From Hyphomicrobiales bacterium (GTDB lineage Bacteria > Pseudomonadota > Alphaproteobacteria > Rhizobiales > JAJFHB01), in NCBI GenBank assembly GCA_021775795.1, contig JAJFHB010000030.1:1-12712 (forward strand): a stretch of 12,712 nt of DNA. The letters run 5' to 3'. The notes beneath the pieces are model-generated. The model made no database searches. It was not told the origin of the DNA and saw nothing but the letters and a program-made list of their open reading frames with translations. The position numbers were made by a program, and so were the translations under genes. Positions 2,798 through 12,712 of this stretch are shown here, piece after piece (the stretch's first letter is position 1; each line of letters opens with the position of its first letter).

Positions 2798-4174
2798 TTA
2801 CAGCCCTGCTGACACTTCGCCAATCGCCTCTGCTACAGCAGAGATGACAATATCGACTTCCTCCCGGGTGATGCAAAGCGGCGGTGCAAAGCCCAGAATA
2901 TCTCCTTGGGGCATGGCGCGGGCAATGACGTTTTTCTTGAGAAGGGCCGCCGCCACTGCAGGGCCAACTTTCTTCGAGGGATCAAACAGCGTCCCTTTTT
3001 CTTTGTCTTCCACAAATTCGACGGCAGCCAGGAGGCCTTCACCCCGGACCTCACCGACAATTGGGTGATCACCCAGCTTGTTGACCAGTTCAGCGTTGAA
3101 ATAGGCGCCGGTGTCACGGGCGTTGGTTACAAGGCCCAGATCGTCGACCAGCTTCAGATTGGCAACGCCGGCCGCTGCCCCGATCGGATGCGCCGAATAG
3201 GTCCAGCCGTGACCAATGGGGCCCAGCTCATCCGTACCCTGTTCGAGAACATTCCAGAAATCGGCGGATACAATCGAACCGGACAGTGGCGCATATGCCG
3301 ACGTCAGGCCCTTTGCGATGGTGATGATGTCAGGCCGGATGCCATAATGTTCGGAACCGAACATAGAACCAAGACGGCCAAACCCGGTAACCACTTCGTC
3401 TGCGATCAGCAGGATGTCATATTTTTCGAGAACAGCCTGGATAGCGTCCCAGTAACCCGCCGGCGGCGGCACGATACCACCCGTGCCAAGCACCGGCTCA
3501 CCGATGAAGGCGGCGATTGTATCGGGGCCTTCGCTTTCAATCAGCTTTTCGAGGGCCAAAGCACAGTCGGCGGAAAATTCTTCCTCGCTCATCGCCCGGT
3601 CTTTTCGGCGGAAGTAATAGGGCGCTTCGGTGTGAATGACCTGAGCAAGAGGAAGATCGAACTTGTTGTGGAACAGTTCGAGACCGGTGAGCGAACCGGT
3701 CATCAGGCCTGAGCCATGGTACCCTCTCCAGCGTGATATGATCTTTTTCTTCTGCGGCCGCCCGCGCACATTGTTGTAGTACCAGACCAGTTTGACGTTT
3801 GTTTCATTCGCGTCAGACCCTGACTGGCCAAAATAAACCCGGCTCATATTGTCAGGCGCCCGGTCCACAATCATCTTTGCCAGCGTGATGGAAGCTTCCG
3901 TACCGTGCCCCACATAGGAATGATAGTAGGCCAGTTCGTGCGCCTGCTGTGAGATGGCATCAGCAATTTCTGTCCGGCCGTAACCAACATTTACACAATA
4001 AAGTCCTGCGAATGCATCCAGCAGGCGGTTGCCGTCACGGTCGCGGATGTAGACGCCTTCTCCCCCCGTGATGACCCGGTTTGGCAGCTCACCACGCGCA
4101 AACTGGGCAAGATGAGTTGAAGAGTGAAAAAAGTGATCCCGGTCCCAGGCGTCGAGTTGATTGTTCTTGAGCAT
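2798..4174 (-). CDS. Class III PLP-dependent aminotransferase (omega-aminotransferase type)
   Basis: A 458-residue, full-length class III aminotransferase of fold type I. Landmarks are LYCVNVGYG (58-66), the phosphate-binding stretch SGSDANET (118-125), RGYHG (150-154) where the tyrosine stacks on PLP, D259 in ADEVVTGFGRLG, which contacts the pyridine nitrogen, and the Schiff-base lysine K288 in TIAKGLTSAYAPLSG. The sequence is of the omega-amino acid/polyamine:pyruvate transaminase type, so the donor is probably a terminal amine, with pyruvate or a 2-oxo acid as acceptor. It follows the M24 hydrolase gene by 78 bp on the same strand and probably belongs to the same transcript. In ectoine-degrading bacteria an aminotransferase of this broad class (DoeD, which acts on 2,4-diaminobutyrate) accompanies DoeA, so such a role is possible, but other amine donors cannot be excluded. 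The start ATG has only a weak ribosome binding site. Confidence 0.8.
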   Translation of the reverse strand: MLKNNQLDAWDRDHFFHSSTHLAQFARGELPNRVITGGEGVYIRDRDGNRLLDAFAGLYCVNVGYGRTEIADAISQQAHELAYYHSYVGHGTEASITLAKMIVDRAPDNMSRVYFGQSGSDANETNVKLVWYYNNVRGRPQKKKIISRWRGYHGSGLMTGSLTGLELFHNKFDLPLAQVIHTEAPYYFRRKDRAMSEEEFSADCALALEKLIESEGPDTIAAFIGEPVLGTGGIVPPPAGYWDAIQAVLEKYDILLIADEVVTGFGRLGSMFGSEHYGIRPDIITIAKGLTSAYAPLSGSIVSADFWNVLEQGTDELGPIGHGWTYSAHPIGAAAGVANLKLVDDLGLVTNARDTGAYFNAELVNKLGDHPIVGEVRGEGLLAAVEFVEDKEKGTLFDPSKKVGPAVAAALLKKNVIARAMPQGDILGFAPPLCITREEVDIVISAVAEAIGEVSAGL

Positions 4175-4252
4175 GCGGCTTGTTCTTTCGGTTCAATGGG
4201 GAAATGCAGCGTTTGAATGTCTGTTGATTGATTTGATGCACACACCGTGCCG

Positions 4253-5434
4253 TCAATCAACCACCATCAGTTTACGGGGGACGTTGCAGAGGCGCTCACC
4301 ACCTCGGTCAGTCACCACAATGGATTCGGAAATAGCAGCGCCAAAATCATCCAGCCACACGCCGGACTGAAAGTGGAAACACATTCCTGAACACAAAATC
4401 GTTTCGTCACCGACCCGTAGGCTTGCGGTGCGCTCACCCCAATCTGGTGGAAAATTGAGACCGATAGAGTAGCCCACCCGGCTGTCCTTGGCATAGCCGT
4501 TGCGTTTGAGAACACCCTGCCAAAGGGCTTCCACTTCAGCACAGGTGACACCGGGCTTTGCAGCTTCAATCGCCAGATCACCCCCTTCGACAATGACATC
4601 AGCGAGACGCGCCATCTCTTCTGGAGGCGGGCCGATATGGGCGGTTCTCGTCAGCGGCGCATGGTAGTGTCTTCGGGCCGATCCCAGCTCCATGACAACA
4701 AGGCCTTCGTCCGGCAGCGGTTCATCTGTCCAGGTCAGGTGAGGCGTGCTTGTGCCTTCGCCCACCTGAATGAGAGGGCAAAGGCTTGTGTAGTCACCGA
4801 AAGCACCATCCATCCCGGCAATCTGGTCATGGTAAACATCCGCAATGACATGGTGTTGAGGCAGCCCCGGCGCCAGTTTCGCCAGCGCCTGGGACATCAC
4901 CTTGGTGGTCAGGTCGCCTGCCTCTCGCATGTAGGCAAGTTCAGCTTCCGATTTGACAAGCCGCGCCCAGTTCACAAGCTCCCTGTTGTCCGTTATCGAA
5001 CAATTCGGCAGCCCCTGAACCAGATGCTGATGAGCCCGTGCGGTGTAATAGTGGGCGTCGAAGTCAACGCCGACCCGCGCCGAACCCCACCCGCGTGAGA
5101 CGACAAGCGTACACAATTCATCGAACGGATGCTCGACCGGGTGATGCACCAACGGCTCTGAAAAGGCGATAATGTTATCGGCCGGCAGGTCGGTCGTTAT
5201 GTGGGCCGACTTTGCATCCTGAGCGCGCCCGAACCAGAGCGGGGACACCTCGTCCAGATGCACGAGCACAGCCTGAGGCGTGTAAAAGGACCAGCCATCG
5301 AACCCCGTCAACCAGCACATGTTGGCAGGATCCTGGCAAATAAGAAGGTCGAAGCCGGCGCTCAGCATGCGCTGCTTGACGTCCGCAACGCGGGCCTCGA
5401 ACTCTTCCGGACCGAAAGCCTTTTCAAATCCCAT
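4253..5434 (-). CDS. M24 family hydrolase, DoeA/EutD (ectoine hydrolase)-like
   Basis: A 393-residue protein with a creatinase N-terminal domain (about 8-155) and an M24 pita-bread domain (about 160-385). The segments WLTGFDGWSFYTPQ (41-54) and GYSIGLNFPPDWGERTASLR (321-340) resemble DoeA/EutD ectoine hydrolases. The metal ligands of ordinary M24 peptidases are mostly missing. The first Asp position is E249 (VMELGSARRHYH), the second falls at A259-P260, the His of the usual GHGIG motif is replaced in VGYSIGL, and the first Glu is replaced in FHFQSG. Only E370 (ISES) remains. This pattern argues against an aminopeptidase and for a metal-independent C-N hydrolase such as ectoine hydrolase or creatinase. 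AAGGA lies 5' of the ATG at a good distance. It is first in a leftward group with the aminotransferase and faces the FAD oxidoreductase across a 220-bp control region. No DoeB-like deacetylase is in the window, so ectoine as substrate is inference. Confidence 0.7.
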   Translation of the reverse strand: MGFEKAFGPEEFEARVADVKQRMLSAGFDLLICQDPANMCWLTGFDGWSFYTPQAVLVHLDEVSPLWFGRAQDAKSAHITTDLPADNIIAFSEPLVHHPVEHPFDELCTLVVSRGWGSARVGVDFDAHYYTARAHQHLVQGLPNCSITDNRELVNWARLVKSEAELAYMREAGDLTTKVMSQALAKLAPGLPQHHVIADVYHDQIAGMDGAFGDYTSLCPLIQVGEGTSTPHLTWTDEPLPDEGLVVMELGSARRHYHAPLTRTAHIGPPPEEMARLADVIVEGGDLAIEAAKPGVTCAEVEALWQGVLKRNGYAKDSRVGYSIGLNFPPDWGERTASLRVGDETILCSGMCFHFQSGVWLDDFGAAISESIVVTDRGGERLCNVPRKLMVVD

Positions 5435-5654: not shown

Positions 5655-8108
5655 GTGACCTCGTCCTCGCCCTCCAGCCACCATGAGATCGTGATTGTAG
5701 GCGGCGGTGTCGCTGGAGCGAGTGCGGCTTACCACCTGTCCAAACTCGGCAAAACCGACATTGCGTTGATTGAGCGCCACCAGCTGACGTCGGGGACAAC
5801 CTGGCACGCAGCCGGGCTGATCATGCAGCTGCGCTCAAGCCACTCCCTCACAGCACTCGCAAAATACAACGTCGAACTCTATGCAAATCTCGAAGCGGAG
5901 ACCGGCCAGGCTACCGGCTTCAAGCAAAACGGCACACTTGGCGTGGCGCGAAGCAAAGATCGTCTGTTTGAAGCCAAGCGTCTTGCATCGATTGCCAAGA
6001 GTTTCGACATCGAAGCCCACATCATCACGCCCTTAGAGGCGCGCAGGCTTTACCCGGCCATGGATACCTCGATCATCGAAGGGGCGATCTACATTCCAGA
6101 CGATGGCCAGACCAATCCCGTCGACACAACCATGTCGCTGATTGCCGGTGCGCGGCAACGCGGCGTGAAAGTCTTTGAAAACACGCCTGCAAACAACCTC
6201 ATGCGCCTGTCCAACGGGCACTTCCGGATCGAAACGCCCGAGAGCACGATTGAGTGTGAAAAACTTGTGCTCGCCTGTGGCCTTTGGACACGCGATCTGG
6301 CTGCCAAGCTTGGTGTTCGGGTGCCGCTCTATCCCTGCGAGCACTTCTATGTGGTGACAGAGCCGTTGGACTTCGTGACGCCAAACCTGCCTGTTCTTCG
6401 CGACACGGACGGTCATGTTTATGTGAAGGAGGATGCCGGCAAGCTTCTCGTCGGCGCTTTCGAACCTGAGGGCAAACCGCTGCCCATGGAGAAGCTGCCC
6501 AAAGACACGCCGTTCATTGAACTGCCCGAAGACTGGGAACATTTCGAGCTTCCCTTCTCCAAGGCCATGGAAATCCTGCCCGGCCTTGAAACAGCCGGCA
6601 TCGCCAAGTTCTTCAACGGACCAGAAAGTTTCACGCCAGACCTCCTGTTCATGCTCGGAGAGGTTCCAGGCATGCCCAACTGTTTTGTCTCTGCTGGCTA
6701 TAATTCCGAGGGTATCGAGTTTGGCGCCGGGGCTGGCCGCGCCCTTGCTGAATGGATCGTTGAAGGCGAACCAACCCTGGATCTGTCACATGTCGATGTG
6801 GCCCGGTTCCACCCCTTCCAGATCAACCGCAACTACCTTCATGACCGGGTTCGTGAAGTTTTGGGTCAGCACTACAAGATGGACTGGCCGCATCAACAAC
6901 CAGCGTCCGCACGCGGCGTGAGACGCAGCGTCGTGCACGACAAATGGGCGTCACTCAACGCCAGTTTTGGAGAGGGTATGGGCTGGGAGCGGCCCATGTG
7001 GTTCGCACCCCCTGGCGGCTCGACGGAAAACGTCTATTCCCACTCCCGGCCAAACTGGTTCGCCCACACTGCACAAGAGTGCCGCGCTGCACGAGAAGAC
7101 GTCGTCATCCTTGATCAAAGCTCCTTCGGCAAACACTTGATACAGGGGCGCGATGCCTGTGATTGCCTGCAGTACATGTGTGCCGGAGACATCAACGTGC
7201 CGGTCGGCAAACTTGTTTACACCCACATGCTGAACAATCGGGGCGGCATTGAAACGGACATCACGGTCAATCGCCTCTCGGAGACACAGTTCCTGGTTAT
7301 CTCTTCGGCCACCATTCAGCCCCGCGACAAATCATGGATCGAGCGCCACCTGGATGCAGAGCGGCATGTATTCCTGAGCGATGTAACGAGCAATTATGCA
7401 GTGCTTTCCCTTCAGGGACCCAGATCGCGAGACCTGCTTTGCACAGTGAGTGATGCGGATTTCAGCAATGAGGCGTTCCCTTTCGCAACCTCCCGGGAAA
7501 TAGACATCGGCTATGCACGGGTTATCGCTAACCGGTTGACCTACGTGGGAGAGCTTGGCTGGGAGCTGCATATCCCTTGTGAATTCGCGCAGCATGTTTG
7601 CGACGTCTTACTGGGCGCCGGCGAGGCCTTTAACCTCAAACCGGCCGGTTATCATGCGCTTGAACATCTGCGATCCGAGCGTGCCTACCGTGAATACGAA
7701 CTGGACCTGACGCCGGAAGACACGCCACTGGAAGCCGGTCTGGGGTTCACCGTAAAACTCGACAAGCCCGGCGGCTTTACCGGCCGCGATGCTCTGCTCA
7801 GACAAAAGAATGCAGGGCCCCTGACAAAGCGGCTGGTGATGTTCAAGTTGAAGGACCCGGAACCGGTACTGTTTCACGAAGAGCTCATCTACTTGAACGG
7901 AGAGATTGTGGGCTATGTCAGTTCGGGCGCCTATGGTTTCACCCTCGGCGCATCGGTCGGGATGGGCTACGTAAACCATGCGGAGGGTGTAACGAAGGCC
8001 TTGATCGCGGCAGGCGACTGGGAAATCGAGATTGCCTGTGAGCGATACCCCGCTGAAGCCTCAATGAACGCCTTCTATGATCCGCATGGGACGCGGGTAA
8101 AAAGTTGA
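5655..8108 (+). CDS. FAD-dependent oxidoreductase/GcvT fusion (dimethylglycine/sarcosine dehydrogenase-like)
   Basis: An 817-residue protein with the domain order of mitochondrial and bacterial dimethylglycine and sarcosine dehydrogenases. A DAO-type FAD domain (about 11-375) starts with GGGVAG (16-21). The SGTTWHAAGL motif (46-55) contains H51, the residue equivalent to the histidine that binds FAD covalently in this family. A short FAO_M-like linker domain follows (about 378-430). The rest is a folate-binding GcvT domain (about 430-700, beginning near FGEGMGWERPMWF) and a GcvT C-terminal barrel (about 715-810), with TPEDTPLEAGLGF conserved between them. It probably oxidises an N-methylated amine or amino acid and passes the one-carbon unit to tetrahydrofolate; the exact substrate is unknown. 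The start is GTG with GGAG 11 bases upstream; the nearby ATG at 5627 is out of frame. The first amidase-subunit gene follows 69 bp later on the same strand, suggesting an operon. Cytoplasmic. Confidence 0.85.
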   Translation: MTSSSPSSHHEIVIVGGGVAGASAAYHLSKLGKTDIALIERHQLTSGTTWHAAGLIMQLRSSHSLTALAKYNVELYANLEAETGQATGFKQNGTLGVARSKDRLFEAKRLASIAKSFDIEAHIITPLEARRLYPAMDTSIIEGAIYIPDDGQTNPVDTTMSLIAGARQRGVKVFENTPANNLMRLSNGHFRIETPESTIECEKLVLACGLWTRDLAAKLGVRVPLYPCEHFYVVTEPLDFVTPNLPVLRDTDGHVYVKEDAGKLLVGAFEPEGKPLPMEKLPKDTPFIELPEDWEHFELPFSKAMEILPGLETAGIAKFFNGPESFTPDLLFMLGEVPGMPNCFVSAGYNSEGIEFGAGAGRALAEWIVEGEPTLDLSHVDVARFHPFQINRNYLHDRVREVLGQHYKMDWPHQQPASARGVRRSVVHDKWASLNASFGEGMGWERPMWFAPPGGSTENVYSHSRPNWFAHTAQECRAAREDVVILDQSSFGKHLIQGRDACDCLQYMCAGDINVPVGKLVYTHMLNNRGGIETDITVNRLSETQFLVISSATIQPRDKSWIERHLDAERHVFLSDVTSNYAVLSLQGPRSRDLLCTVSDADFSNEAFPFATSREIDIGYARVIANRLTYVGELGWELHIPCEFAQHVCDVLLGAGEAFNLKPAGYHALEHLRSERAYREYELDLTPEDTPLEAGLGFTVKLDKPGGFTGRDALLRQKNAGPLTKRLVMFKLKDPEPVLFHEELIYLNGEIVGYVSSGAYGFTLGASVGMGYVNHAEGVTKALIAAGDWEIEIACERYPAEASMNAFYDPHGTRVKS

Positions 8109-8177
8109 AACTGCAGGGCCCACAACGACAATGCGGGTTAAAGTATCCGGACAACTACAACGGCAAGGGTCAGGGCA

Positions 8178-8393
8178 ATGGAGAAACTAAACCGTCAAAC
8201 CCTCAAGGGTCTCACAAGGGAACTCGCCTCTCACTCCTGGCGCGAGGAAGAAATCGATGAATTGGTGGAACCGAAACTCGGCATTATTACCGGCTTTCAG
8301 GATCTGCTGAACGAACTGGAGATCTTGCGCAAGACGGATCTGGGTTTCACGGCTCCAGCACAGGGGGTGCAACGCCTGGACTCCGATAAATGA
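8178..8393 (+). CDS. Small GatC/AtzG-like amidase subunit, copy 1 (orphaned)
   Basis: A 71-residue, mainly helical, charged protein without recognised catalytic motifs. It differs from copy 2 (11098-11313) at only three residues: L50 to M, D54 to G and S69 to P. The proposed role comes from context and shape. Copy 2 overlaps an amidase-signature gene by four bases, the arrangement seen for small subunits such as AtzG with AtzE, and the layout (helices, then a proline-containing tail FTAPAQG) is reminiscent of GatC/AtzG. Sequence similarity to those families by eye is weak, so the assignment is inference. Here the partner amidase is broken after 11 codons. The protein could still be made and act with the distant intact amidase, or be a leftover. 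It lies 69 bp after the oxidoreductase gene on the same strand, and an AGGG-rich stretch before the ATG gives a fair ribosome binding site. Confidence 0.65.
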   Translation: MEKLNRQTLKGLTRELASHSWREEEIDELVEPKLGIITGFQDLLNELEILRKTDLGFTAPAQGVQRLDSDK

Positions 8394-8419
8394 CGGACGC
8401 GAGAAATGACGGACGCGAG
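8388..8419 (+). repeat. 16-bp tandem duplication at the broken amidase start
   Basis: AAATGACGGACGCGAG occurs twice in direct succession (8388-8403 and 8404-8419). Each unit contains an ATG matching the amidase start, and the first also contains the TGA of the small gene. Copy 2 of the large repeat has a single unit with one base changed (GCC for GCG), so the duplication arose in copy 1, as by replication slippage. Confidence 0.9.
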
Positions 8420-8441
8420 CCTTGCGTTTGAGCCGATTTGA
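8390..8441 (+). pseudogene. Remnant of amidase 5' end
   Basis: From the second ATG (8406) the frame reads MTDASLAFEPI and then stops at TGA (8439-8441). These 11 residues are identical to the N-terminus of the intact amidase at 11310. From the first ATG (8390) the 16-bp duplication shifts the frame and it also stops quickly. The match to the intact gene ends at 8437, after which the sequence is unrelated. This is therefore the truncated start of an amidase gene that once followed, or was copied from, this position, and it marks the left junction of the inserted region. Confidence 0.8.
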
Positions 8442-8495
8442 GCATCGCATGATTTCAACGCAACACGGCAAAATGGCATTCTAAAAAGACAAGCA

Positions 8496-8548
8496 CGGTG
8501 GCAATGAAATTTGCTACCCGTTGCCGTTTGACGAAACTACCGCCACCG
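8496..8548 (-). terminator. Possible terminator downstream of the AraC-family gene
   Basis: Immediately past the regulator's stop (8551), arms GCCACCG (8542-8548) and CGGTGGC (8496-8502) are fully complementary, with a shorter alternative stem TTGCC (8521-8525) with GGCAA (8500-8504). Read on the - strand, a run of five T (complement of 8483-8487) follows about 8 bases after the stem. The large loop makes this uncertain. Confidence 0.3.
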
Positions 8549-8550
8549 CC

Positions 8551-9381
8551 TCACTCGGTAATCATATGTGCTACACGGCGATACTCACTCGGCGCCATCC
8601 CAACATTTCTGCAGAAGAAGCGAGTGAACGCACTGTGCGACGAAAACCCAAGGTCGTAACTAAGATCTATCACGGTCGATTCGGTGTTCACCAAACGGTC
8701 GATCGCCCGTTCCATACGCATCATATTGAGAAACAGATTGGGAGTGATACCCGTCTGCCTGCGAAACAGCTTGAAAAAATGCGGTCGCGACAGACCGGAG
8801 GCCCTCGCCACCTCTTTCAGCGTGAACTCTTCACCCAAATTTTCGCTCAAGATACGGATTGAGTTGCGAATGCGATAGTCATTTAGCTGGATGTGTTGCT
8901 TACCAACAGTGGCTCTCATGTCCTGCCGCTGGAAGGTCTGGTCAAGACATTCTTGAGCTAGCTCATAAACATATCCATCAAACAATTCCGCCGAGCAGAA
9001 ATCCAGAAGCAGCATCACCACCTTAGAGATGGAGCGGTGAATTACATCGGTGATTTCGACCTCGTTACGACCAAAATGAAACGCATACTTTTCATGCTGG
9101 GCAGCTTCGAGGAACCAGCTCTGATTGATGTAGAGCACAAGAAATAGGGCGCTGTCCTCCTCCGCCGGGATGAAATCATGAGGTTCCCAGGGATTGATCG
9201 CACAGCCGCTACCATGTGAAACTTGATATCGCCTGTTACTGATATTCTGAACCCCGGGCGCCCCTTCCACGAGAAACGTCAGATGCCCTTGACGGTGAGC
9301 GTGCGTCGTCATCGTGCTGTTCATTTGATACAGGCACGCCCGCCCGAACTTCCCATGACAGATCGAGATAGCCGTGTTCAT
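8551..9381 (-). CDS. AraC family transcriptional regulator
   Basis: A 276-residue regulator with the usual AraC/XylS layout. An N-terminal cupin-type sensing domain (about 20-100) includes HAHRQGHLTFLVEG and NPWEPHDF, with histidines H27, H29 and H68 typical of the AraC_binding barrel. A C-terminal DNA-binding domain (about 172-272) has two helix-turn-helix units: LKEVARASGLSRPHFFKLFRR (188-208) and the second around VIDLSYDLGFSSHSAFTRFF (237-256), followed by GMAPSEYRR. The effector is unknown. GGGAG six bases upstream supports the ATG start. It lies downstream of the phosphotriesterase-family gene on the same strand, separated by 266 bp that hold its own promoter candidate and two dyads. 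It is the only regulator in the window, so it may control the hydrolase, itself, or the flanking amidase operon. Base composition is AT-richer than the surrounding catabolic genes. Confidence 0.88.
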   Translation of the reverse strand: MNTAISICHGKFGRACLYQMNSTMTTHAHRQGHLTFLVEGAPGVQNISNRRYQVSHGSGCAINPWEPHDFIPAEEDSALFLVLYINQSWFLEAAQHEKYAFHFGRNEVEITDVIHRSISKVVMLLLDFCSAELFDGYVYELAQECLDQTFQRQDMRATVGKQHIQLNDYRIRNSIRILSENLGEEFTLKEVARASGLSRPHFFKLFRRQTGITPNLFLNMMRMERAIDRLVNTESTVIDLSYDLGFSSHSAFTRFFCRNVGMAPSEYRRVAHMITE

Positions 9382-9438
9382 GCTCGTCTCCCACAGCTAA
9401 CCACTCCTGCATCCAAGCGGTTCCGCTATCTGCAACAT

Positions 9439-9466
9439 TTCGCCAAGAATTCGGTGACTTGGCGAA
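9439..9466. promoter_or_regulatory. Dyad in the AraC-family gene leader
   Basis: TTCGCCAAG (9439-9447) and CTTGGCGAA (9458-9466) form a perfect 9-bp inverted repeat around a 10-base spacer, 58-85 bp upstream of the regulator start. TGCAAC occurs on both sides as a direct repeat (near 9431 and 9469). It could be an operator for autoregulation or a leader hairpin. There is no T-run on the downstream (-) side, so a terminator is less likely. Confidence 0.5.
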
Positions 9467-9515
9467 CCTGCAACAAATACATAGCCGGTACCACCTATGC
9501 TTCCACACTGGCAAA

Positions 9516-9546
9516 AATATAGCCGTGCATGATGCATGGTCATCAA
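9516..9546 (-). promoter_or_regulatory. Promoter/operator candidate for the AraC-family gene
   Basis: On the - strand a TTGATG (complement of 9541-9546) and a TATATT (complement of 9516-9521) are separated by 19 bases. Between them lies a near-perfect palindrome at 9523-9539: CCGTGCAT, one base, ATGCATGG, matching at 7 of 8 pairs. The spacing is longer than the usual 17, so the promoter would be weak or activator dependent. A palindrome between -35 and -10 is a classical repressor position. Confidence 0.35.
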
Positions 9547-9647
9547 CGCCGCAGTTGTAGTTTACACCGCGGTTCACAAGTGTATCAACATCTCGCAAAC
9601 CCTGCTGGTTAAACAGTCAACAAGCTACCCGACGAAGCGAAAACAAC

Positions 9648-10715
9648 TCAGACAACGTGATCACCGCGGCGGAAAGCACTAATCACATTGTCGCGTAGTA
9701 TGCGGTTTGTAATTTCCTCGCCCAAGCGCGTGGCAAGCTTCGCCTCAAAATAGCGATACACATATCCATTGTCGCGATCATATTGCCACGCTGGTGGATG
9801 AATGTATGCTGCCGCATCTGCCGAAACTAGGACTCGATCCGAGTGCCCTGCTTTCACGACACTCTCAATGCGATCCAACATCGATTCATCGTCGGTGGGA
9901 CCATTGAAGAAGGGGTCTGAATTGGCACTGATGGCATCAAACTGAACCATAGCGCCCTCGTCTACCATCTTAAGGTGTTCATCACTTGCAGATGGCTGCG
10001 CATGTCCCCAAACGAATCGGTCAAGCTTGAACCCCTCGGATTGCAGAACCGAAACAACTGACCAAGCAGTAGGTGCCTGGGGGCTATGCAGTGTAATGGT
10101 GCAACCCGTTTCATTTGCGGCAATCGCTGCGGCGCGGTGAAAATCGCTTTCTTGCTCGGTCGTGCCAGTTTCAGTGGTGGAAATCTTGATCCAACCTGCC
10201 CTTATTGCTGTTCCGTCGATTCCCATTGTCAACTCACGAATGAAATGATCCGCAATTCCATTGACGGGCAGATCAGCCAACGCCGGTGGAACGAGGCCTT
10301 TGTATATTCCGGTTGAACTTACAATGTTGACACCCGTTTGGCGCGCAACATGGCGAAGCATCATTACATTTCTGCCAATCCCAATATTGGTCCAGTCAAT
10401 GAACAAGTTAACGTCTTGAGCCGCCAACTCTTCTGCCATCGTAACACTTGCACCGGTTACGGCTTGCCAATCGACATTCATGTAGTTGGCGTCACTCGGC
10501 CCGTGGAAATCAGCATAGAAATGCTCGTGGGCCAACGCTTTCTTGATTGTCGACCCCATCACAGGGCCGGTCACAGTTTCAAGCACTATGTCATCGACAC
10601 CAGAAGCGAGTGCACCTGAATATTTCAATGGTCCGGCCGCCATTAGCGCACCTGCTGCAAGCCCAGTCTTCAGAAAATTACGCCGGCTTGTGCTCATTGG
10701 GTCAGGTATCAGCAT
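9648..10715 (-). CDS. Tat-exported phosphotriesterase-family (amidohydrolase superfamily) hydrolase
   Basis: A 355-residue protein with a twin-arginine signal at the N-terminus (STSRRNFLKTGLAAGALMAAG, arginines 11-12, cleavage expected near residue 38), so it is predicted to be folded and metal-loaded in the cytoplasm and exported to the periplasm. The mature part is a phosphotriesterase-type TIM barrel. All expected metal ligands can be placed: H63 and H65 (LAHEHF), bridging lysine K177 (GWIKIS), H210 (ITLHSPQ), H238 (VWGHAQ) and D300 (VLVSADAA), with the family's C-terminal NRILRDNVISAF. The substrate may be a lactone, ester or phosphoester; the family is too diverse to say. AGGAG nine bases upstream supports the start at 10715 rather than the internal ATG seven codons in, which has no ribosome binding site. 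It is followed 266 bp later by the AraC-family gene and lies within the AT-richer cassette. Few members carry Tat signals in my experience, which makes it distinctive. Confidence 0.8.
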   Translation of the reverse strand: MLIPDPMSTSRRNFLKTGLAAGALMAAGPLKYSGALASGVDDIVLETVTGPVMGSTIKKALAHEHFYADFHGPSDANYMNVDWQAVTGASVTMAEELAAQDVNLFIDWTNIGIGRNVMMLRHVARQTGVNIVSSTGIYKGLVPPALADLPVNGIADHFIRELTMGIDGTAIRAGWIKISTTETGTTEQESDFHRAAAIAANETGCTITLHSPQAPTAWSVVSVLQSEGFKLDRFVWGHAQPSASDEHLKMVDEGAMVQFDAISANSDPFFNGPTDDESMLDRIESVVKAGHSDRVLVSADAAAYIHPPAWQYDRDNGYVYRYFEAKLATRLGEEITNRILRDNVISAFRRGDHVV

Positions 10716-11097
10716 CCTCGTCGTCTCCTAAATAGGTTTTTGTGTAGAACCGCTAAAGTGACGGCCCTCCCCTAACGCCATCCACTGCACATTCTCCACA
10801 AGAGAGAACCGCCAGTGCTCGAAGCATCGGTGAGTTAATCAACGCTCCAAGAACAGTCCTTGCCCTGCAGTTGACTGTCTTAACCTCAAGTCTCTTTTTC
10901 GCTTAGTGCGCGCGGTCACATACTGTTATCGATGCGCTCCACGTCTCAGAGCATGTAATTTCACAACCGATTGTTTTTATCAGCATGGAGCAAAAATGAC
11001 TTCGCGCAATTGGCCCTGACACGACACATCACACACTCCAGTGCGCTAGTGTTCCCGGTAAAGTATCAGCCACACTCAAACATGATGGATTAGCATT
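10716..11097. other. Divergent intergenic region upstream of the hydrolase and the amidase operon
   Basis: This 382-bp stretch has no credible gene. It must contain the promoter of the leftward hydrolase gene and that of the rightward small-subunit/amidase pair. I can point to AGGAG just upstream of the hydrolase start, TTGACT at 10871-10876 as a -35-like hexamer on + without a good -10 at 17 bp, and TAAAGTATC at 11059-11067, which is shared with the region upstream of copy 1 at the same distance from the start codon. It is AT-rich (24/60 GC at 10921-10980). Confidence 0.5.
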
Positions 11098-11313
11098 ATG
11101 GAAAAACTAAACCGTCAAACCCTCAAGGGTCTCACAAGGGAGCTCGCCTCTCACTCCTGGCGCGAAGAAGAAATCGATGAATTGGTGGAACCGAAACTCG
11201 GCATTATTACCGGCTTTCAGGATCTGCTGAACGAACTGGAGATTATGCGCAAGACGGGCCTGGGTTTCACGGCTCCAGCACAGGGGGTGCAACGCCTGGA
11301 CCCCGATAAATGA
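11098..11313 (+). CDS. Small GatC/AtzG-like amidase subunit, copy 2
   Basis: A 71-residue protein, paralogous to copy 1 with three residue differences. Its stop codon TGA overlaps the amidase start (ATGA at 11310-11313), so the two proteins are translationally coupled and are likely made in equal amounts, which supports a complex. The protein is charged and predicted helical (residues 5-50), ending in a flexible tail with FTAPAQGVQRLDPDK. By analogy with GatC in GatCAB and AtzG with AtzE it may stabilise or complete the active site of the amidase; sequence similarity to those families is faint, and the function is inferred from context. It has no transmembrane segment or signal peptide. The ribosome binding site before the ATG is weak (GGAT-like), weaker than that of copy 1. 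A promoter should lie in the preceding 382 bp. Confidence 0.7.
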   Translation: MEKLNRQTLKGLTRELASHSWREEEIDELVEPKLGIITGFQDLLNELEIMRKTGLGFTAPAQGVQRLDPDK

Positions 11314-11341
11314 CGGACGCCAGCCTTGCGTTTGAACCGAT
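11098..11341 (+). repeat. Direct repeat, copy 2 (small subunit gene plus amidase 5' end)
   Basis: Partner of the segment at 8178-8437, same orientation, offset 2920 bp. This copy has a single amidase start and continues without interruption into the full amidase gene, so it probably reflects the ancestral junction. Similarity to copy 1 ends at position 11341. Confidence 0.9.
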
Positions 11342-12712
11342 ATCCTCGCTTCTTCAGAAACTCTCCGAATTCGCCATCTCAAGCACCGAGTTGACGGAGC
11401 TTTACCTCGACCGTATCGCCCGCCTCGACGACAAGGCGAAGTCATACATCGAAGTCACCTCGCGCACTGCTGTTGAGGCTGCACGCAAAGCCGATCAGGC
11501 GCGCGCAAAGGGTGTTGAGATCGGTGCCCTGTGCGGCATCCCGTTCGCCTCAAAAGACCTGATAGATATTGCCGGTGTCAGAACAACGGCGGGCTCCCGC
11601 GTCCTGCATGACAATGTTGCAGAAACCAACGCCCATCTGATTGACCGCATGTTCACCAGTGGCGCTGTGAGCCTTGGCAAAACCAATCTGCATGAGTTTG
11701 CCTATGGTGCCACCGGTGAAAACCCGGCCTATGGTACGTCGGTAAATGCCCATGACACGACCCGCCTTGCAGGCGGGTCAAGCAGCGGATCCGCCGCAGC
11801 GGTTGCTTTTGGACTGGCGCCTGCGGCTTTTGGCACCGACACGGGCGGCTCGGTTCGTGCACCGGCAGCATTGTCGGGCCTTGTCGGCCTGAAACCAACA
11901 ATCGGGCGCATTTCGACCCATGGCGTTATCCCCTATTCCTGGACCCTGGATCATATTGGCATAATTGCCCGCACTGTGATGGACGCCGCCCTGCTCCTTG
12001 AGGTTACCGCCGGCCATGACCCCCGCGACCCCTCATCTGCAAGCGAACCCGTTGACGCCTATCAAAGTGGTGCCTGCACGGATTTTTCTGATCTCAGAGT
12101 GGGTATCCCGCGCACTTTCTACTTCGATCAGTGTGACGAAGAAATTGCCGCAGCAAGTGAACGGGTACTCCGGTTTCTTGAGCAGGCAGGAGCCCGCCTG
12201 GTTGATATTGATCTGCCGTCCATGGAACAGGCGCGCACTGTATCCCTGACATTGCAGATGCCGGAGGCTTTGAGTTTTCACTCGCGTTATCTGGAAGAGC
12301 GGGGTGATCTCTACGGCGAAGACTTTCGCGCCGGACTGGCCCTTGGGCAGTGCCTTCTCGCAGAACACTATGTTCGGGCCAAACGGGTGCTCGCTCTGTA
12401 TCGGCAACATACCAACACAGCCTTTACCGAGGTGGATGTCATCGTCACACCGGCAGCCCCCGTAATCGCGCCAAGAATTGGTGATGTCACAATTGAAACC
12501 GGAGGTGTAAGCGAAGCGGCGGGGAACGCCATTACGCGCTACACCACATTCTTCAACATGTCCGGACACCCCGCCATCTCAGTTCCAGCAGGCATGCACA
12601 CATCCGGACTGCCCATGGGAGTTCAGATTGTTGGCCGCTACTTCGAAGAAGCAGCGCTCCTGCGTGTCGCTGCCGCGGTGAATGCTGATCCCGCATTCGC
12701 GGTTCCGATCCC
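11310..12712 (+). CDS. Amidase-signature family hydrolase (3' end beyond window)
   Basis: An open frame of 467 codons runs to the window edge without a stop; since family members are usually 450-490 residues, only a little is missing. The amidase signature triad is complete: K82 (FASKDLID), S157 in the glycine-serine motif LAGGSSSGSAAAV, and S181 in GTDTGGSVRAPA. The spacings K-S of 75 and S-S of 24 match known members such as FAAH. The C-terminal block SGHPAISVPAG, followed by GLPMGVQIVG, is also typical. It hydrolyses a C-N amide bond; the substrate is not evident, though AtzE/GatA-type enzymes with small partner subunits are the nearest comparison. There is no signal peptide, so it is cytoplasmic. 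The start is chosen because it overlaps the small-subunit stop by ATGA and because the same N-terminus is preserved in the remnant at 8406. It probably belonged to an operon with the FAD oxidoreductase before the cassette separated them. Confidence 0.88.
   Translation, partial: MTDASLAFEPISSLLQKLSEFAISSTELTELYLDRIARLDDKAKSYIEVTSRTAVEAARKADQARAKGVEIGALCGIPFASKDLIDIAGVRTTAGSRVLHDNVAETNAHLIDRMFTSGAVSLGKTNLHEFAYGATGENPAYGTSVNAHDTTRLAGGSSSGSAAAVAFGLAPAAFGTDTGGSVRAPAALSGLVGLKPTIGRISTHGVIPYSWTLDHIGIIARTVMDAALLLEVTAGHDPRDPSSASEPVDAYQSGACTDFSDLRVGIPRTFYFDQCDEEIAAASERVLRFLEQAGARLVDIDLPSMEQARTVSLTLQMPEALSFHSRYLEERGDLYGEDFRAGLALGQCLLAEHYVRAKRVLALYRQHTNTAFTEVDVIVTPAAPVIAPRIGDVTIETGGVSEAAGNAITRYTTFFNMSGHPAISVPAGMHTSGLPMGVQIVGRYFEEAALLRVAAAVNADPAFAVPI

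Follow-up and report, generated by a model that had tools for sequence, protein, structure and literature searches.

A small gene-amidase start duplicated around an AraC-hydrolase cassette in a Hyphomicrobiales bacterium, probably an ordinary recombination scar

The 12,712-nt stretch of DNA analyzed here (the window) is contig C213 (JAJFHB010000030.1, assembly GCA_021775795.1) of a metagenome-assembled genome of a Hyphomicrobiales bacterium, which comprises 3.63 Mb in 705 contigs and is 71% complete. It holds an amidase gene that is directly preceded by a gene of 71 codons (the small gene); the small gene and the very start of the amidase occur once more to the left, and a cassette with two genes on the opposite strand lies between the two copies. 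The features of the locus are as follows.

5655..8108, + strand: FAD-dependent oxidoreductase of 817 aa, with a C-terminal half that is aminomethyltransferase-like (dimethylglycine/sarcosine dehydrogenase type; Pfam DAO, FAO_M, GCV_T, and GCV_T_C)
8178..8393, + strand: orphan copy 1 of the small gene (71 aa), frame intact, with the family-consensus Leu50 and Asp54
8388..8419, + strand: two tandem 16-mers (a 16-nt duplication) across the small-gene stop and the amidase start, in copy 1 only
8406..8441, + strand: amidase remnant of 11 codons followed by TGA; its likeness to copy 2 ends after 8437
8438..11097, no strand: cassette between the repeats, 2,660 bp, of unusual composition (guanine-plus-cytosine (GC) fraction of 0.506 and tetranucleotide outlier)
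8551..9381, - strand: AraC-family regulator of 276 aa, with an AraC-type ligand-binding domain and HTH_18 (Pfam)
9648..10715, - strand: phosphotriesterase-like metal hydrolase of 355 aa, with a twin-arginine translocation (Tat) signal (Pfam PTE, 154 bits; TAT_signal)
10716..11097, no strand: divergent intergenic region of 382 bp, from the hydrolase to copy 2, GC 0.49
11098..11313, + strand: copy 2 of the small gene (71 aa), with a 4-base overlap with the amidase start; Met50 and Gly54 are off the family consensus
11310..12712, + strand: amidase-signature hydrolase, frame open up to the contig end

The repeated unit comprises the small gene and the first 11 codons of the amidase, and it occurs in direct orientation at 8178-8437 (copy 1) and 11098-11341 (copy 2). 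In a global alignment, 234 of 244 aligned bases are identical (95.9%), with 10 mismatches and one 16-nt gap, and the longest exact run common to both copies is 77 nt; a 96% match over 244 nt is beyond chance. The gap corresponds to a tandem duplication in copy 1 (identical 16-mers at 8388-8403 and 8404-8419), which explains why the copies are 260 and 244 nt long, respectively. With 10 mismatches in 244 sites and this indel, the duplication is not fresh. Seven codons of the small gene differ between the copies, four of them synonymously (codons 2, 15, 23, and 49), whereas the others bring about the changes L50M, D54G, and S69P from copy 1 to copy 2; the two small proteins are 96% identical to each other. 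The amidase frame of copy 1 meets its TGA after 11 codons, whereas that of copy 2 stays open. Likeness between the copies stops after 8437 on the right, and on the left, upstream of the start codons, only 33 of 80 bases are identical. The leaders, although otherwise dissimilar, both contain the nonamer TAAAGTATC in register (8139-8147 and 11059-11067), and these are its only two sites on the + strand of the window; on shuffling one flank in 100,000 trials, the nonamer run was reached in 0.026% and the 33/80 identity in 0.15%. A search of the whole assembly with copy 1 matched these two places only. An original prediction, made from the sequence of the window, had described the 71-codon gene and 11 amidase codons as duplicated at ∼96% identity, only the second copy as running on into an amidase, and a breakpoint at 8437 as lying inside the amidase frame, all of which our alignment bears out.

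Lys82, Ser157, and Ser181 of the amidase, which we take to be the Lys-Ser-Ser catalytic residues of the amidase signature, are invariant in a six-sequence alignment that includes AtzE, to which the amidase is 32% identical. The amidase scores under the curated NCBIfam cut-offs for AtzE/GatA (353.4 vs 461, 334.8 vs 425.75, and 343.5 vs 481.1 bits). Assignment of the small protein to the GatC or AtzG families was considered but is not supported, as it has no Pfam GatC match and no detectable similarity to AtzG (hhalign probability of 0.2% against a single AtzG sequence). A Pfam scan of 15 members of the small protein family at E values up to 10 yielded neither GatC nor any other relevant match, the four matches obtained being at chance level, and the 71-aa protein has no NCBIfam match. 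In AtzG-AtzE, the 1-carboxybiuret amidohydrolase of Pseudomonas sp. ADP, a gene of ∼70 codons likewise stands directly before an amidase-signature enzyme; AtzG is described in the available text of PMC6219798 as the noncatalytic, obligate partner, without which AtzE is insoluble. The pair in the window differs from this system in that its amidase is 32% identical to AtzE and below the AtzE cut-offs, and in that its small protein lacks similarity to AtzG. As no homology to AtzG was found, we limit our claim to the statement that the two gene products may function in the manner of AtzG-AtzE; we infer that the amidase has the small protein as a subunit, so that the pair probably makes a two-part amide-cleaving enzyme.

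The small gene lies directly before an amidase in all 16 other loci that were read, and copy 1 is the only orphan seen. These loci comprise eight genomes (G040, G756, G474, G218, G138, G461 (a weak match), G781, and G777) and eight loci on seven plasmids (L162, L163, L164, L165, L166, L168, L169, and L175), the plasmids being seven of 12 matching records (H2, H3, H4, H7, and H12 were left out). In the plasmid loci, which are from Rhizobium, Mesorhizobium, and Paraburkholderia, an M24 peptidase gene is directly upstream of the small gene-amidase pair in eight of eight cases, and a sarcosine-oxidase-like oxidoreductase is downstream of it in five. These operons thus hold the same kind of pair as the window; unlike the window, they have the M24 peptidase directly upstream and, in the stretches read, neither the AraC-hydrolase cassette nor an orphan copy. 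One Mesorhizobium plasmid holds two small gene-amidase operons, and two pairs per replicon are therefore a real starting state.

The plasmid operon reads as M24 "Xaa-Pro peptidase," hypothetical gene of ∼70 aa, and amidase; its neighbors are an ectoine-type ABC transporter together with the sarcosine-oxidase-like enzyme (five of eight loci) or other ABC transporter genes (three of eight). A limited literature search found no publication on ectoine, amidase, Xaa-Pro peptidase, and sarcosine oxidase as a set. The second small gene of plasmid pMspAR07b, considered as a further orphan, belongs to a second complete operon.

Among 5.8 billion proteins searched, the small protein had 14 matches, namely, its own copy 1 and 13 others that are 59-74% identical to copy 2, P0002 being the only one of the 13 that could be assigned to a genome (G040). 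No other member found exceeds 77% identity to copy 1 or 74% to copy 2. In genomes, the small gene is rare. The counts, each of which includes the query or center genome and which come from overlapping genome sets, are 3 of 385 for the class, 5 of 397 for the order, 3 of 61 for the order to which G218 belongs, and 1 of 1 for G138. The three other genomes of the family to which the window genome belongs gave no match, one of these genomes being only 61% complete, and a scan of viral contigs returned no relative of the small protein, so that carriage by phage is not supported. An AlphaFold2 model shows two helices, with a mean predicted local distance difference test score of 61.4, which is too poor to use; a comparison of the model with only two chains gave no structural match.

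In an alignment of 25 members, Asp54 is present in 24, the sole exception being copy 2 (D54G); Met50 occurs in copy 2 only, and two plasmid members have Ile50. Judged from its consensus Leu50 and Asp54, its slightly higher profile score (136.8 vs 132.3 bits for copy 2, with a profile that contains both copies), and the stronger pairing predicted between its leader and the 16S tail (-6.1 vs -3.1 kcal/mol, with -5.3 kcal/mol for G040 as the only comparator), the orphan seems to be better preserved than the copy linked to the amidase, which is the opposite of simple decay. It is mildly surprising that the amidase-linked copy is the one that has lost a near-invariant aspartate, which the orphan keeps.

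The cassette has a GC fraction of 0.506, vs a sampled genome mean of 0.565 (standard deviation of 0.012, minimum of 0.532), and none of the 94 sampled windows is as low; its tetranucleotide distance is larger than in all of them. This sample consists of overlapping windows from 16 of 20 sampled contigs, the other four being wholly N and yielding no windows. The two cassette genes, at 0.509 and 0.514, are also lower in GC than seven other larger genes measured in the window (0.539-0.581), and the intergenic DNA of the cassette is lower still. Both complete genes of the cassette, for the AraC regulator and the phosphotriesterase-like hydrolase, are on the minus strand. The intervening DNA is thus AT-richer and carries opposite-strand genes as predicted, and the predicted lack of a transposase holds for these two genes: a Pfam scan of them (shorter frames were not scanned) revealed no transposase, integrase, relaxase, or replicon domain. 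Further, the window contains no inverted repeats of at least 30 nt, and a comparison of the cassette ends (8430-8560 vs 10961-11100) gave no match of 7-12 nt in either direct or inverted orientation. Insertion of a transposon or insertion sequence was rejected, because no transposase domain was found in the two cassette genes and no terminal inverted repeat or short target duplication at these lengths, the duplication being one of 244-260 nt.

A paralogue of the AraC regulator, 62% identical to it, is encoded on another contig of this genome (G000:C508, L156), and the regulator therefore need not be foreign. AraC relatives were read at six loci, with the neighbors resolved at all but L159: an aldehyde dehydrogenase gene adjoins in three (L156, L160, and L161), an iron alcohol dehydrogenase is found in two (L156 and L157), and a thiamine-diphosphate enzyme in one (L158); at L156, the paralogue comes after the aldehyde dehydrogenase and the iron alcohol dehydrogenase. 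The nearest relative of the hydrolase among the matches listed in a protein search is 76% identical. At an E value of 1e-40 or better, the hydrolase had no match when 346 other genomes of the order were searched, but matched in 4 of 22 in the order of G140; a class search of 289 genomes at 1e-3 matched the query genome and 26 others, with identity above 60% in only one of the 26. A conserved AraC-hydrolase pair was considered and rejected, as no AraC match was obtained at the hydrolase-relative loci of G140, G841, G838, and G840, which are those with the best genome matches (the G840 locus spans only 4.4 kb). The small gene had no match at these loci beyond one of 14 residues at an E value of 0.58. 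In L113 and L115 (from G841 and G840), the matched stretch contains in-frame stops, and the hydrolase-relative gene may therefore be decaying there.

The original prediction also held that the ancestral order was probably oxidoreductase, small subunit, and amidase, and looked to close relatives for this order without interruption. Among 46 loci with relatives of the window oxidoreductase, 0 hold the small gene (tblastn, E value of 1e-4, at least 40% of the query), several of these contigs ending soon after the oxidoreductase; amidase matches over at least 40% of the query occur in three of the 46, at 28-32% identity. Together with the M24 peptidase that is upstream in all plasmid loci, this leaves the predicted order weak. 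In its favor, G040, which has the closest small gene placed in a genome (74% identity to copy 2), carries on one strand an oxidoreductase paralogue (38% identical), a choline-kinase/APH-family gene, the small gene, and the amidase, an arrangement that makes the proposed ancestral order plausible.

The locus is probably an ordinary recombination scar, made by a mechanism known in kind. We give about even chances to one illegitimate junction at 8437, which would have arisen through either one-sided homologous integration, i.e., homology-facilitated illegitimate recombination (HFIR), or a deletion between two operons. The locus would then carry two versions, ∼4% diverged, of a conserved small gene-amidase pair, and a single junction after 8437 would have fused the resident amidase, at codon 11, with the compositionally unusual DNA that bears the AraC and phosphotriesterase-like genes, by (i) HFIR, with the incoming DNA anchored by amidase homology and a nonhomologous join at 8437, or by (ii) deletion between two nearby operons. 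The resident amidase would have been truncated and its small gene stranded as an orphan behind the oxidoreductase, while a second complete pair would follow the cassette, so that the surviving amidase would now lie behind the divergent intergenic region of the cassette. As this region (10716-11097) contains no sigma-70-type promoter match, control of the amidase by the AraC regulator or the cassette is something that we can only infer.

Either route would leave a joint at 8437 beside a complete, 4%-diverged pair, and the nonhomologous joint with the complete second pair to its right fits, at the level of sequence only, the pattern of HFIR. In HFIR, a homologous joint goes together with an illegitimate one and, as a rule, with deletion of resident DNA, as set out in the available text of PMC3240628, and a process akin to it is proposed in that of PMC5361080 for orphan immunity genes of the Vibrio cholerae type VI secretion system. 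In those arrays, as described there, a module likewise displaces a two-gene module and leaves the small partner behind; in the window, the stranded gene probably encodes an enzyme subunit, and it would have been left by one event and upstream of the new module. Several points weigh against an illegitimate junction of this kind. Among the relatives examined, none was found with the donor order of hydrolase, small gene, and amidase or with the uninterrupted recipient order for the window oxidoreductase, and the parental sequence of the cassette end, where 3-10 nt of microhomology would be usual, was not found. The model itself does not explain why the likeness of the copies ends at the start codon, nor why the nonamer TAAAGTATC stands in register beyond that boundary. 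Moreover, the AraC paralogue means that, by that test, the cassette is not wholly foreign, and HFIR is rare in the experiments described in the available text of PMC5361080 and PMC3240628.

Other routes could lead to the same anatomy. The small gene and the amidase start may have been tandemly duplicated within the genome, with the AraC-hydrolase cassette inserted between them later. The two copies do share one genome and one orientation, and at 96% protein identity they are closer to each other than to the other members found (no more than 77% for copy 1 and 74% for copy 2); such a history, however, demands two independent events in one short interval and a duplication that starts at the start codon, and it has to accommodate copies that are already 4% diverged, which makes it unlikely in our judgment. 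The other route is the single-crossover integration of a circle that the original prediction put forward. A circle carrying the cassette, the small gene, and 11 amidase codons would have entered through one homologous crossover (Campbell type), and the insert would then be flanked by two hybrid copies. This part of the prediction is compatible with our data, in that direct repeats with identical runs of up to 77 bases flank the insert exactly as expected, a transposase is not needed, and the repeats fit this route as well as they fit the illegitimate junction, but the part of the operon on the circle must have run precisely from the start codon through codon 11, and no replicon, integrase, or relaxase domain was recognized in the two cassette genes. 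Such a circle is possible but unnecessary, and we consider it rather improbable.

An assembly artefact, i.e., a chimeric contig, would be in keeping with the fragmentation and incompleteness of the genome and with a protein search in which a copy above 74% identity was seen on this contig only. Yet the copies have no exact run in common that is longer than 77 nt, they carry distinct bases and an indel, and a switch inside the repeat would still need a molecule that joins the cassette to each copy of the small gene; we therefore regard an artefact as very unlikely.

With an illegitimate junction at 8437 as the preferred origin, the locus would exemplify how the operon of an enzyme may be broken and come to lie behind a new upstream region, with its subunit gene left behind and no recognized mobile element involved. 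It also points to a family of small proteins that has no Pfam match and is encoded directly before an amidase in 16 of 16 other loci. A functional split is conceivable, in which the orphan would supply the small subunit in trans, its near-invariant Leu50 and Asp54 and stronger predicted ribosome-binding site being the basis for this, and the amidase-linked copy (Met50 and Gly54) would serve mainly for translational coupling, although we hold the odds to be slim. If so, assembly of the amidase would depend on the oxidoreductase operon and its synthesis on the region supplied by the cassette, so that two operons would naturally divide the control of the subunits between them; recombination between the repeats would bring back the order of oxidoreductase, small gene, and amidase.

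Further left in the window, 2798-5434 encodes a class III aminotransferase and an M24 peptidase, divergent from the oxidoreductase at 5655-8108. This M24 peptidase resembles the ectoine hydrolase DoeA (402 bits, under the model cut-off of 613), and relatives of it (71-75% identity) lie within ∼4 kb of an oxidoreductase relative in L025, L031, and L041. A NodZ-family protein is encoded at 858-1931 (Pfam NodZ, 78 bits).

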